From the NCBI RefSeq assembly GCF_014199335.1, contig NZ_JACIJI010000001.1, positions 124,001-188,000 of the forward strand: a DNA stretch of 64,000 bases, written 5' to 3'. How positions within the stretch are numbered: the stretch's first letter is position 1; each line of letters opens with the position of its first letter. The stretch comes from Stakelama sediminis (GTDB taxonomy: Bacteria > Pseudomonadota > Alphaproteobacteria > Sphingomonadales > Sphingomonadaceae). The notes beneath the pieces are model-generated. The model ran no database searches and had not been told where the DNA came from. It worked only from the letters and a program-made list of their open reading frames with translations. This document shows positions 18,576-22,451 of the stretch, piece by piece. The position numbers and the translations under genes were made by a program.

Positions 18576-19538
18576 TTATTTGCGCGTCGGCAGACAACCG
18601 TTACCCGCGCGCTTGACCTCGGCACAGGCGCGCATGGCCTCTGCCGCGGATGCATAGGGACCAACCTGCAGCCGGGTCAGCTTCCCGGCCTTCACATAAT
18701 AGACCTGACGCCCTTTCAGCATCGCCACGCGCGATCCCAGCTTCGCCCACAATCGGCGAGCATTGCCGTCCTCCCCGAACGCACCAAGCTGTACCCGCCA
18801 GCCGCCATCGACGATTTTCGGTTGCTGTTGGACCGGACCCTTGACCGGCTTCGGCTTCGGTGCGGGCGACGATGGTGGTGGCGTCCGCTTCGTCTCCGGT
18901 GCGTTCGAAGCCACCTGCACCGGCAGCGCCGCTACCTGCATCCCGGCCAGGTCGACGCTATTCTTGTCGGTGGCCGCTTCATATTTGCGCGCCAGTGCCA
19001 GCCCCTGCTCCCGGTCGGACAAGGTTACATAGCGCGCCATATCCGTCAGCGTTTTCGACGCGCGCGGCAATCCGCCCGCCGATGCGCGTGACATCAACGC
19101 ATAGGCACGCACCCAGTCTTTCGGAATGACGGTGCCGTTGAAATACATGGTGCCCAGCACGAACTGCGCGCGCGGGTCGCCGCGTTGCGCTGATTTCTTC
19201 AACCAGGGCAGCGCCTCGACCCGCTTGCCATTCTGAAACAATGCCAGCCCGTAATTGTCACTTGCCTGCTGATGCCCCTGCAACGCCGCCTTGCGATACC
19301 ATTGCTCGGCGGTTTTCAGATCGGCGGGAACCCCCCTGCCCAGCTTGTATGCCTGTCCCAGATTGAACTCCGCATCGGCATCGCCGCGTTCGGCAGGGCC
19401 GCGCCATTCGGCAACCGCCTTGGCATAATCCCCGCGTTCCCACGCATCGATGCCTTCTTTCACATCGGCCAGCGCAGGCGCAGCCACCGCAATCAGCAAC
19501 ACCGTCGATGCCAGGATACCAGATACGCCGCGTTTCAT
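18576..19538 (-). CDS. Exported Sel1-repeat and SPOR-domain protein
   Basis: This 320-residue protein has a signal peptide (ILASTVLLIAVAAPALADV), then three to four Sel1-like (TPR-related) repeats such as AEFNLGQAYKLGRGVPAD, AQFVLGTMYFNGT and related helices up to about residue 180. A Pro/Lys-rich linker follows, and a C-terminal SPOR domain covers about 240-320 (GWRVQLGAFGEDGNARRLWA to GPYASAAEAMRACAEVK). SPOR domains bind glycan strands stripped of peptides at division sites. The gene is divergent from the parA-type operon, which ends in another SPOR protein. Confidence 0.85.
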   Translation of the reverse strand: MKRGVSGILASTVLLIAVAAPALADVKEGIDAWERGDYAKAVAEWRGPAERGDADAEFNLGQAYKLGRGVPADLKTAEQWYRKAALQGHQQASDNYGLALFQNGKRVEALPWLKKSAQRGDPRAQFVLGTMYFNGTVIPKDWVRAYALMSRASAGGLPRASKTLTDMARYVTLSDREQGLALARKYEAATDKNSVDLAGMQVAALPVQVASNAPETKRTPPPSSPAPKPKPVKGPVQQQPKIVDGGWRVQLGAFGEDGNARRLWAKLGSRVAMLKGRQVYYVKAGKLTRLQVGPYASAAEAMRACAEVKRAGNGCLPTRK

Positions 19539-19578
19539 GTCGCCCCCGCAAAAAACTTATTGTTGTGAATATCGCGCG

Positions 19579-19650
19579 TTAACCGGAATTTGCAAAGCCT
19601 TCCTAACCATCCCGCCTTGACGGACGGGGTGGCGATTGCCTGCGTTAACC
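19579..19650. promoter_or_regulatory. Cluster of CtrA-like half-sites
   Basis: TTAACC occurs at 19579-19584 and 19645-19650, and TAACCAT at 19604-19610, in the 172-bp gap between the divergent Sel1-SPOR and parA-type genes; GTAACC follows near 19688. TTAACCAT is the half-site of the alphaproteobacterial cell-cycle regulator CtrA. No full TTAA-N7-TTAA site is seen, so the assignment is tentative. Confidence 0.35.
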
Positions 19651-19710
19651 GCTTCTTATCATTCCGCATGGCATTGAAGCCTTCGGGTAACCGGGAATTC
19701 AGGGGATTCA

Positions 19711-20427
19711 ATGCGCGTTCTCGCGATGGCATCGCAAAAAGGCGGATCGGGAAAGACGACTCTTTCCGGGCATCTGGCCGTTCAGGCGCAACGTTCGGGC
19801 CATGGCCCGGTCGTGCTGATCGATATCGACCCGCAAGGATCGTTGTCCGATTGGTGGAACGAGCGGGAGAGCGAATATCCCGCCTATGCGCAAACCACGG
19901 TCGCACGGCTTGCCTCTGATCTGGAGGTTCTGCGTCAGCAGGGATTCAAGCTGGCGGTCATCGACACGCCGCCCGCCATTACCATGGCGATCCAGAGCGT
20001 GATCGCGGTGGCCGAACTCATTATCATTCCAACGCGTCCCAGCCCGCACGATCTGCGTGCCGTGGGCGCGACGGTCGATCTGTGCGAGCGCGCGGGCAAG
20101 CCGCTGATCTTCGTGGTCAACGCTGCCACACCCAAGGCCCGGATCACCTCCGAAGCCGCGGTCGCCCTGTCGCAACACGGCACGGTGGCGCCTGTCACTC
20201 TGCATCACCGCACGGATTTCGCCGCGTCGATGATCGACGGACGCACGGTGATGGAGGTCGATCCCAAATGTCGCTCGGCTCAGGAAGTCGAAGCGCTGTG
20301 GGAATATGTTTCCGATCGCCTCGAAAAGAACTTCCGTCGCACCGTATTCGCCGCGCCCAGCGCTGCCGCGGCCGGTTTCGGAGCGGTTCGTCCGGCGAGC
20401 GGCTTCGGCCGCAGGGTGGTGAGCTGA
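19711..20427 (+). CDS. Orphan ParA/MinD-family ATPase
   Basis: This 238-residue ATPase has the deviant Walker A box KGGSGKTT (residues 10-17) with its signature lysine, the A' motif LIDIDPQGSLSDWW and the Walker B segment LAVIDTPP. The family positions DNA or protein cargo by dimerising on the nucleoid in an ATP-dependent way. No ParB gene is next to it and the usual parAB context (gid/rsmG) is absent, so it is probably not the chromosome-segregation ParA. It is the first of three tightly spaced genes, with four bases to the next. Confidence 0.88.
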   Translation: MRVLAMASQKGGSGKTTLSGHLAVQAQRSGHGPVVLIDIDPQGSLSDWWNERESEYPAYAQTTVARLASDLEVLRQQGFKLAVIDTPPAITMAIQSVIAVAELIIIPTRPSPHDLRAVGATVDLCERAGKPLIFVVNAATPKARITSEAAVALSQHGTVAPVTLHHRTDFAASMIDGRTVMEVDPKCRSAQEVEALWEYVSDRLEKNFRRTVFAAPSAAAAGFGAVRPASGFGRRVVS

Positions 20428-20431
20428 CATC

Positions 20432-21073
20432 ATGAATATGTTCAACACCAAACCCGCCGCGTCGCTCTCTTCCGGCCTGCTCGCCCGCAAGGGACAGGCA
20501 CGCCCGGCCATGCGCCCCCAGGGTTTTGTGGGCATGACCCATGAGACGCTGGAAGACCTTGGCTGGAACGACATGGGCGACCATGCGCCGATCGATCACG
20601 TCGCGACACCGCTGACGCCGTCGGTTCCTGCTCCGACAGCACAGGAAGCACCTCCGCCGGTGCTGCGTCAACGCGAACGCCTTGACCATGAATTTGGCGG
20701 CCTGACCCCGATGGACGGTGCAACCTCGACCTCTGACCTCGTGGATATTCACGAAGCGACGGAAATGCCGGTCGCAGCTGATCCGGTTCAGCCCGCGCCG
20801 GTCGTCGAACCACAGCTTGCAGCCCCCGATGCCGTGCGCGGCGTATCGCTCAACACGGCCAAACGGCTGCGTAAGGAAACCACCAAGAAACGCGGCAAGG
20901 CGGCCTTTACGCTGCGCCTCGATTCCGAACGCCATCTGCGCCTGCGCCTCGCCTCAGCGGTGTGCAACCAATCGGCGCAGAATCTGGTGACGCAGGCGCT
21001 CGACGCCTTTCTCGAAAACATGCCCGAAGTCGACGATCTGATGGATCAGCTCGCCACCGGGCAGGGTCGTTGA
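20432..21073 (+). CDS. Protein with disordered N-terminus and putative ribbon-helix-helix C-terminus
   Basis: This 213-residue protein lies between the ParA-type ATPase and a SPOR lipoprotein. Residues 1-140 are rich in Pro, Ala, Thr and acidic residues and probably disordered. After a basic stretch (KRLRKETTKKRGK), residues about 155-200 read FTLRLDSERHLRLRLASAVC and then SAQNLVTQALDAFLENMP, the strand-helix-helix spacing of MetJ/Arc-type DNA-binding proteins. It could be the DNA-binding or adaptor partner of the ATPase, in place of ParB. I do not recognise a named family. Confidence 0.65.
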   Translation: MNMFNTKPAASLSSGLLARKGQARPAMRPQGFVGMTHETLEDLGWNDMGDHAPIDHVATPLTPSVPAPTAQEAPPPVLRQRERLDHEFGGLTPMDGATSTSDLVDIHEATEMPVAADPVQPAPVVEPQLAAPDAVRGVSLNTAKRLRKETTKKRGKAAFTLRLDSERHLRLRLASAVCNQSAQNLVTQALDAFLENMPEVDDLMDQLATGQGR

Positions 21074-21089
21074 TCCGGGGGGAATTAGC

Positions 21090-22451
21090 ATGAAGACCCG
21101 TACAGCTTTGATGTTCGGCATTTCGGCGCTGCTGCTTGGCGGCACCATGGTCGGCTGCTCGGCTACGCACAATATGCTCGCCAGTGCCGGCACAGTGAAG
21201 CCGGACAGTCGCAAGGCGCAGAAATCTGCCGACAAGGCGGGTGAGGCACTGGCGAAGCACGACAATGACAAGGCGGTACGCTACGCTGAACAGGCGGTGG
21301 CGACGGCACCGCAAAACGCCGCCTATCGTGCGCTGCTGGGCCAGAGCTATCTGCATGACGGCCGTTTCGCTTCGGCAGAACAGGCGCTTCAGGATACGTT
21401 GAGCCTCAACCCCGATAATGGCCGGGCAGCGCTCAACCTTGCTCTCGCGCAGACTGCACTTGGCCATTGGGATGACGCACGCGCAACGCTGAACTCCCAT
21501 CAGAACCAGATTGCCCCCGCCGATCGAGGGCTGGCGCTGGCGCTGGCAGGCGATCCGAAAGGCGCGGTTGAAATTCTGGCGAAGGTTGCGCGTCAGCCCA
21601 ACGCCAATGCTACCGCACGGCAGAATCTGGCGCTGGCACTAGCGCTCGCCGGCCATTGGCGCGAGGCGCGTGCGATTGCCGCCGTGGACGTCGCTCCGGG
21701 TGAGATTGACGACCGCATCGCGCAATGGGCCGCGTTCGCACGTCCGACCCATGCCTATGATCAGGTCGCGTCGCTGCTTGGCGTCAAATCGGTCGGTGCC
21801 GATGCCGGTCAGCCGGTACAGCTCGCGTTGAAGGACAGCGATACGAAACTGGCTGCGGTTGCGCCGATTGCACCCGTGGCATCAGCAACGCCGGATGCCG
21901 ACACGGCCCCGGCAGAGACTGATACGCAGGTTGCCGAAGCGGCAGCCGTTCCTGCTCGCGCTCCGCAACAGGTTGCGCAGGCCGCACCGGTCATGCCGAT
22001 GGCTGCACAAGGCCCGGCAGTATCGTTCGCACCGCCGCGTGAAGTGGCTCAGGCCATTCCCGCGCATATGGTTCGCAAAGCCGCCGCTCAGGCCGCTCCC
22101 AAGCAAGCGGTCGCCGTCCGGAAAGCGCCTGAAAAGGCACCGACGCTCAGCGCCGGCAATTATTATGTCCAGCTCGGTGCCTATGAAAACGCCGCTGTGG
22201 CCAAGGAAAAATGGCATCGTATCAGCCGCCGTAACCAGCGGCTCGCATCGCTGACGCCATCGGGAATGGAGGCCAAGGTCAACGGCCAGAGCTTCTATCG
22301 CCTGTCGGTCGGCGGCTTTGCCCGCAACGATGCCGTCAGCCTGTGCCGGTCGGTCAAGGCAAATGGCGGTCGCTGCTTCGTCCGCGCCGATGCGGGCTAT
22401 CAGACGGCAAACTGGGTCGCCAACAAGAATATTCAGCTCGCCTCTCGCTAA
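21090..22451 (+). CDS. TPR lipoprotein with C-terminal SPOR domain
   Basis: This 453-residue protein begins with a signal peptide ending in a lipobox (GGTMVGC, Cys 23), so it should be lipid-anchored and facing the periplasm. TPR-like helices span about 45-230 (AEQAVATAPQNAAYRALLGQ; AEQALQDTLSLNPDNGRAAL). A long Ala/Pro/Gln/Val linker follows, then a SPOR domain at about 360-453 (YYVQLGAYENAAVAKEKWHR to LCRSVKANGGRCFVRA). It is the third gene of the parA-type operon, 16 bases after its neighbour. SPOR would place it at constriction sites, linking the cytoplasmic ATPase genetically to the cell wall. Confidence 0.8.
   Translation: MKTRTALMFGISALLLGGTMVGCSATHNMLASAGTVKPDSRKAQKSADKAGEALAKHDNDKAVRYAEQAVATAPQNAAYRALLGQSYLHDGRFASAEQALQDTLSLNPDNGRAALNLALAQTALGHWDDARATLNSHQNQIAPADRGLALALAGDPKGAVEILAKVARQPNANATARQNLALALALAGHWREARAIAAVDVAPGEIDDRIAQWAAFARPTHAYDQVASLLGVKSVGADAGQPVQLALKDSDTKLAAVAPIAPVASATPDADTAPAETDTQVAEAAAVPARAPQQVAQAAPVMPMAAQGPAVSFAPPREVAQAIPAHMVRKAAAQAAPKQAVAVRKAPEKAPTLSAGNYYVQLGAYENAAVAKEKWHRISRRNQRLASLTPSGMEAKVNGQSFYRLSVGGFARNDAVSLCRSVKANGGRCFVRADAGYQTANWVANKNIQLASR

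Follow-up and report, generated by a model that had tools for sequence, protein, structure and literature searches.

A chromosomal locus of the alphaproteobacterium Stakelama sediminis, lying in a 64,000-nucleotide stretch of contig NZ_JACIJI010000001.1 (hereafter the window), combines a ParA-family ATPase with two proteins that carry SPOR domains, and this locus is real and conserved. What can be stated firmly is that the chromosome encodes a ParF-like ParA together with a dedicated activator-type partner, a 213-residue protein ending in a ribbon-helix-helix (RHH) domain. Because two of the five SPOR-domain matches in the whole genome (E ≤ 0.001) fall at this locus, and because different families of the order Sphingomonadales show the same arrangement, it exceeds chance. 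On balance we lean towards the view that ParA and the RHH protein are a cognate ATPase/activator pair, descended from a plasmid type Ib system or sharing an ancestor with one, which became chromosomally fixed between SPOR genes and likely coordinates the position of the nucleoid, or of a locus, with septation. The strongest of the new results comes from other alphaproteobacterial lineages, where a membrane-spanning SPOR protein with the same N-terminal peptide can take the place of the RHH protein behind ParA, which extends the association beyond the order.

The ATPase carries a deviant Walker A motif at residues 9–17, has no N-terminal helix-turn-helix (HTH), and exceeds the Pfam cut-offs of AAA_31 and CbiA, among others, and its top matches in a PDB sequence search were a ParA (5u1g) and ParF (4dzz). 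It also passes the cut-off of the Pfam MipZ model (28.7 bits against 20.7), but the alignment is limited to the shared P-loop region (model positions 2–51 of 262), and thus it is not a full-length MipZ match. The four open reading frames (ORFs), the gaps of 4 bases between parA and the RHH gene and of 16 bases between the RHH and TPR-SPOR genes, the 172-bp divergent region and the KGGSGKTT motif are all as described in an initial annotation of this DNA, and the TPR, Sel1 and SPOR domains named there exceed their Pfam cut-offs (TPR_19 and SPOR in the TPR-SPOR protein, with SPOR at 22152–22385; Sel1 and SPOR in the Sel1-SPOR protein, with SPOR at 18591–18806). The same annotation called this ParA an orphan, which holds in one sense only. 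No ParB lies beside it as in canonical chromosomal ParABS systems: in a search of the genome, ParB_N had no match at the locus, and the best ParB match lies on another contig (G000:C6:85570), adjoining a ParA-like gene (C6:84677). The ATPase is not partnerless, since the RHH protein adjoins it directly downstream, the domain and position found for partners in type Ib systems, with centromere binding putative. A second ParA-like stretch in the same genome (L002, G000:C6:23197-23868), 35% identical and interrupted by one in-frame TGA, is possibly a pseudogene.

The RHH assignment comes from the protein family as a whole. Among 20 family members, the window protein included, Pfam matches at E ≤ 0.1 were to RHH_10 in 11, Antitox_RHH in nine, HicB in six and ParG in four. 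AlphaFold predicts with confidence helices at residues 165–178 and 182–195 (block pLDDT 85–96) in a model otherwise mostly of low confidence, as would be expected for one half of an RHH dimer. Weak Foldseek matches to this model include Arc and MatP, both of which we take to be RHH proteins, and a PDB sequence search with the family alignment returned just 2kel (0.12) and ParG 1p94 (0.16). T160 and R162 are invariant in the family and lie in the presumed DNA-contacting strand, at positions that presumably contact DNA as in Arc-type proteins. Hence the possible RHH end raised by the initial annotation is upheld by the family matches and predicted helices, and the lack of a DNA-binding fold, which would have spoken against it, is not borne out by the sequence, with the window protein alone staying below threshold. 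At its other end, the partner begins with a conserved basic peptide, A-S-L-x3-LLARKG-x-A-x-P, in which A10, L12, L16, L17, A18, K20, G21, A23 and P25 are invariant across the 20 sequences; the invariant K-G and near-invariant R fit a putative ATPase-activating role. Partners of ParA-type ATPases often activate them through just such a peptide, short, basic and N-terminal, to which a part that binds DNA, protein or membrane is attached (accessible part of PMC7993993).

This gene unit is widely kept in the order. The RHH protein found matches in 139 of 196 genomes, and the ParA profile (E ≤ 1e-100) in 164. All 19 loci chosen via the RHH gene have ParA and TPR-SPOR, and 17 have Sel1-SPOR; ParA is far more constrained than its partner, since its identity to the window protein is 69–88% in these loci and that of the partner 26–58%. 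Twelve further loci, reached from weaker ParA matches, have the RHH gene in 11 cases, a match to the TPR-SPOR profile in all 12 and one to the Sel1-SPOR profile in 10, of which eight also match the SPOR profile (L224 and L230 do not). In six of these 12, all from one family (f5), the Sel1-SPOR gene is inverted between the RHH and TPR-SPOR genes and is still in the cluster. Thus, the ParA/SPOR association outlived a rearrangement, which weakens, without fully discarding, frozen synteny as its sole cause. The initial annotation had made its proposal hinge on co-occurrence of these genes in relatives, and the conserved and rearranged synteny, as well as the variant in other lineages described below, agrees with it. 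Losses are also informative. In one genome of the window's genus (locus L228, G125), the RHH gene is missing, both SPOR genes are kept, and ParA, in which DTPP has become DAPS, looks to be decaying; as RHH loss accompanies ParA loss or decay here and in two congeners (L261 and L262), ParA and the RHH protein behave as one unit. ParA is also missing from five further genomes of the window's family (G105, G121, G133, G155 and G193), and none of these has a full-length TPR-SPOR protein, a match at E ≤ 1e-20 being absent in three and partial in two.

Relatives of the pair are found on plasmids, where seven ParA records reach 60–80% identity and 3493 are lower. Five plasmid loci were read (two betaproteobacterial, two gammaproteobacterial and one from an uncultured bacterium; ParA 57–67% identical), and in all five the next gene is small and encodes a very similar N-terminal peptide (e.g. 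SLTSGLVAKKGQAAPA), with the pattern L[VI]A.KG.A.P. By eye, all five partners also have an RHH-like end; Pfam found no RHH match in the three that were scanned, and the whole window RHH protein had no plasmid match at E ≤ 0.01. Judged from these sequences, ParA and the RHH protein look like a type Ib partition cassette of the ParF/ParG kind that has become resident in the chromosome, with the plasmid systems as origin or close kin; the tree does not prove a direction. The plasmid relatives and the shared peptide also lend weight to the earlier suggestion that the RHH protein stands in for ParB.

Beyond the order, the partner of this ParA can be of another kind. In a class-wide sample, ParA of this subfamily (E ≤ 1e-60) occurs in 40 of 289 genomes; outside the order it was located at 44 sites, of which 40 were taken, and as three of those end at a contig edge, 37 loci were assessable. 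The downstream partner has the peptide core in 31 of these, and among the 1569 ORFs of at least 100 residues in the class-sample loci the core occurs in 27, of which 25 lie directly behind ParA. In seven of the 37 loci, the protein downstream of ParA consists of the peptide, a transmembrane (TM) helix and a SPOR domain, with no RHH-domain match. When an alignment of these seven was searched against 84,980 named species, with ParA presence being no criterion, 60 loci were retrieved and ParA was present in all 60; some are ordinary four-gene Sphingomonas loci, and the fused type was found in Parvibaculum (P. indicum, P. sedimenti), Rhodobiaceae and metagenome-assembled genomes of Sneathiellales. 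In total, 39 ORFs in 33 records (six records being common to both samplings) join the peptide to SPOR, and all 39 have a TM segment with hydropathy of 1.91–2.96. Its N-terminal flank has more K/R in 34, an equal number in four and fewer in one, so the peptide should face the cytoplasm; the TM-SPOR variant thus has, on hydropathy and charge, the bitopic, N-in topology with a C-terminal SPOR domain that is characteristic of FtsN. SPOR exceeded the Pfam cut-off in all four TM-SPOR partners scanned. A quick tree of 94 ParAs, with many open forks and RHH-type labels not each checked, requires two changes for the TM-SPOR type, at least one of them forced, which points to one or two origins among RHH-type ParAs. 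The variant suggests that a peptide predicted to activate the ATPase was transferred from a DNA-binding partner to an envelope protein resembling FtsN.

The surroundings of the TM-SPOR variant add a division theme. In one clade of four distinct records (L136/L184, L186, L189 and L193), the adjoining convergent gene encodes MipZ (Pfam E 2e-80 to 4e-86), the ATPase that places the division site in alphaproteobacteria, and in L178 and L179 a convergent Sel1-SPOR gene lies beside ParA and TM-SPOR. Both partner types can coexist: seven genomes (G202, G204, G317, G318, G337, G401 and G420) have two or three ParAs of the subfamily, and G204, G317 and G401 each pair one copy with an RHH-type partner and another with a TM-SPOR partner, a split that match positions suggest for G337 and G420 as well. 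The variant was also sought outside Alphaproteobacteria and on plasmids. A phylum-wide search with the TM-SPOR alignment matched 97 of 398 genomes, but among the matches listed none starts before profile position 55, so these are ordinary SPOR proteins; on plasmids it gave 16 records, the best 10 of which match the SPOR stretch only.

Some loci show further partner architectures. In one of them, the protein that accompanies ParA (L141:6715-7236, minus strand) begins with the same peptide but has an end resembling an HTH (HTH_23, E 0.014, below cut-off) and not RHH, which is possibly a third cargo part. An extra gene directly behind the RHH partner was seen at L142:6480-6950 (minus strand), L116:8350-8934, L120:6583-7272, L123:9278-10126 and L138:9078-9752; the genes of the last four form one sequence cluster, the N-terminus resembles the peptide in L142 and L123, and the product is possibly a second ParA partner. 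In L122 and L139, the partner peptide is degenerate, its KG core being lost, and a long TPR gene is convergent to the RHH gene.

The divergent intergenic region contains a conserved element (Table 1), of which the sequence TTAACCNNTTCTTA is unique in the genome, also when one mismatch is allowed, and a TTAAC site of this kind starts 63–73 bp 5' of parA in 23 of 66 loci examined. The element is retained beside TPR-SPOR in L262 and, less exactly, in L261, both without ParA and RHH, so it is not a private site of the RHH protein; a role as RHH operator or centromere is disfavoured, and it is probably a promoter or host-factor element. It resembles TTAA-N7-TTAA, which we take to be the CtrA consensus. 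CtrA-like sites (at most one mismatch) lie 5' of parA in all 13 loci of the order with a recognised start (shuffle mean 2.99, maximum 6), in 24 of 53 named loci (mean 2.93, maximum 7) and in only five of 13 class loci (mean 2.42, maximum 6). Exact TTAAC-N6-TTAA sites, at three places in the genome, adjoin no CtrA target recognised by eye, and the accessible part of a CtrA paper (PMC2877005) gives no motif. CtrA control of the operon is not claimed. The same region holds two identical copies of GCGTTAACCG, at 19576-19585 and 19642-19651, 66 bp apart.

Table 1. Features of the ParA/SPOR locus (window coordinates) and the MipZ gene beside a TM-SPOR variant (coordinates of locus L184)
Feature	Position	Strand	Description
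Sel1-SPOR gene	18576..19538	-	Sel1 repeats and a SPOR domain at the C-terminus; signal peptide at the N-terminus, judged by eye
Divergent intergenic region	19539..19710		172 bp
Conserved upstream element	19644..19674	+	GTTAACC-N2-TTCTTA-N8-CATGGCAT
parA	19711..20427	+	238-aa ATPase of the ParA family, ParF-like, with deviant Walker A (QKGGSGKTT) and without N-terminal HTH
ParA-partner gene	20432..21073	+	213 aa; N-terminal peptide, disordered middle, C-terminal RHH
N-terminal peptide of RHH partner	20459..20506	+	Residues 10-25; predicted ParA ATPase-activating peptide
RHH domain	20894..21016	+	Residues about 155-195; Pfam on family members and AlphaFold helices
TPR-SPOR gene	21090..22451	+	TPR protein ending in a SPOR domain; N-terminus of lipoprotein type, judged by eye
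MipZ gene	L184:7075-7953	-	Convergent beside ParA and TM-SPOR genes

The sequences themselves establish the gene unit, the peptide held in common, the RHH and SPOR domains, the plasmid relatives, the TM-SPOR variant and the MipZ neighbour. How such a pair might work can be sketched from its relatives, and it is in this sense that we infer DNA binding, ATPase activation, movement and any division role. ATP-bound ParA dimers would bind the nucleoid, and the RHH protein would dimerise, bind DNA by its C-terminus and dock its basic N-terminal peptide on ParA, triggering ATP hydrolysis; the resulting local depletion of ParA would make the partner complex move or stay at a set place. The likely job would be to coordinate nucleoid or locus position with septation, whose cell-wall sites the two SPOR proteins would read. 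Peptidoglycan that has lost its stem peptides, to which SPOR domains bind, is enriched at the septum (accessible part of PMC6895207). In Parvibaculaceae and other lineages, it is a bitopic SPOR protein that carries the peptide, on its predicted cytoplasmic tail, and a septal SPOR protein could thus present it to nucleoid-bound ParA at the division site, with septal peptidoglycan as the cargo or as the signal for ParA discharge. For the window, presentation of the peptide would fall to the DNA-binding RHH protein, and coupling to the two periplasmic SPOR proteins is conjectural.

Several results weigh against this reading. The 213-residue protein of the window reaches 14.9 bits against Pfam RHH_10, below the cut-off of 27, its AlphaFold model has no Foldseek match at E ≤ 0.001, ParA does not reach the cut-off of NCBIfam ParA_partition (NF041546; 167.3 against 180), and upstream of parA no iteron-like array was found, two-copy repeats only. 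Six of the 37 downstream partners in the class sample are without the peptide core, the plasmid peptides fit the looser pattern with the class-sample core matched in only one of five, and BLAST against 288 sequences, many of them short, found MipZ adjacency neither in the window nor anywhere else outside the one clade. Both SPOR proteins of the window look exported or periplasmic, with export signals called by eye and the lipoprotein-type cysteine of TPR-SPOR missing in some orthologues; neither has a visible cytoplasmic part, and no physical bridge is visible in the window. In L261 and L262, ParA and the RHH protein are both gone and the divergent SPOR pair stays, between serB/miaA and pyrC/pyrB as in relatives. 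L264, L265 and L266 likewise have the pair with no ParA/RHH cassette beside it, the genome of L266 carrying a ParA at another place (L263), followed by what looks by eye like an RHH-type protein. Since the SPOR genes persist with no adjoining cassette in all five loci, they are not dependent on ParA and RHH.

One may argue that these genes are neighbours only, with ParA and the RHH protein forming a self-contained, DNA-acting partition or positioning cassette that was inserted into an old divergent SPOR pair and shares nothing but the promoter. We consider this less likely, although it would account for the clean loss of the cassette in two congeners, for the upstream element that stays with TPR-SPOR afterwards, for the SPOR pairs without an adjoining cassette in L264, L265 and L266, and for SPOR proteins without a visible cytoplasmic part; it sits poorly with four genes that stay together across families and through rearrangement, with the peptide fused to TM-SPOR directly downstream of ParA in other lineages, and with the MipZ neighbour. 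Plasmid RHH partition proteins often act as repressors, and an RHH domain with invariant T160 and R162 flanked by divergent genes on both sides could likewise mainly set the dose of both SPOR proteins, with ParA merely tuning repression. This is improbable in our judgement; the sole conserved upstream element remains where RHH is absent, and the TM-SPOR variant, which has no RHH, is left unexplained. Finally, an unseen membrane protein might bridge ParA and the RHH protein to the SPOR proteins of the window, allowing direct cytoplasm-to-envelope positioning as the membrane-spanning SPOR partner of a homologous ParA does suggest, yet the loci examined have no bridging gene in the cluster (genes elsewhere were not sought), and we give this very little credence.

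Under the preferred reading of a cognate ATPase/activator pair, the ParA/SPOR link is well supported as an association and, via the membrane variant, plausible as a mechanism in general. The initial annotation had proposed a positioning module coupled to cell division, of which the ParA/SPOR association and the division theme, with MipZ adjoining in one clade, stand; the cytoplasm-to-envelope link within the locus does not, as the SPOR proteins look exported and the SPOR pair is kept without ParA and RHH in two genomes of the same genus. We tentatively go further, at somewhat less than an even chance, and propose a new class of ParA systems in which the division-site cell wall serves as cargo or as discharge signal: a plasmid-type ParA and its peptide would have been recruited to couple the nucleoid, via a SPOR protein, to denuded septal peptidoglycan, alongside MipZ, and sphingomonads would split the task between the RHH protein and two SPOR proteins.

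If true, this has implications for an open problem, the coordination of the nucleoid with the septal cell wall in bacteria. Were a membrane protein that reads peptidoglycan to present a predicted activator peptide on its cytoplasmic tail, nucleoid and wall would be linked physically and directly, and a plausible evolutionary route is that a partition cassette swaps its cargo by changing whatever follows a short peptide. Most of the genomes sampled from the order, to which common bacteria of soil, water and plants belong, have the sphingomonad version, and its function did not turn up in the literature searched. In open-access PubMed Central, by which most subscription journals and bioRxiv are uncovered, no title or abstract start among the matches listed describes this combination, and nothing was returned on ParA together with SPOR and RHH domains, or on operons that join SPOR and ParA family proteins. 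The main text of a survey of ParA/MinD cargo systems (PMC10241942) has no word starting with "SPOR", and the accessible part of a ParA review (PMC9178275) names other orphan ParAs and not this one.

Among known systems, the closest is type Ib ParF/ParG of TP228, in which a short ParA without an N-terminal HTH is likewise followed directly by an RHH partner with a disordered basic N-terminal tail, proposed and debated as an arginine-finger donor in the case of ParG (accessible part of PMC12462528). In contrast, the window cassette is chromosomal, with its ParA recurring in 164 of 196 Sphingomonadales genomes, has no iteron array seen, is flanked by SPOR genes, and has a longer partner with a second, family-specific motif, EDLGWNDMG. 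PomZ/PomX, McdA/McdB and PpfA/TlpT share the principle of a short conserved basic N-terminal peptide on a variable cargo-binding part, whereas that part is RHH here or, elsewhere, a TM helix plus SPOR, which the accessible part of PMC7993993 does not describe. TM-SPOR partners resemble FtsN/DedD in their predicted cytoplasmic tail, single TM helix, proline-rich linker and C-terminal SPOR domain, and three that were scanned partially match NCBIfam CellDivFtsNCaul, at 26.4–51.4 bits against a curated FtsN cut-off of 300, but their tail carries the ParA-linked peptide and their gene follows parA. As for MipZ, it too is a ParA-family ATPase and its gene adjoins the TM-SPOR variant in one clade, whereas the window ParA covers only the P-loop part that the two have in common.

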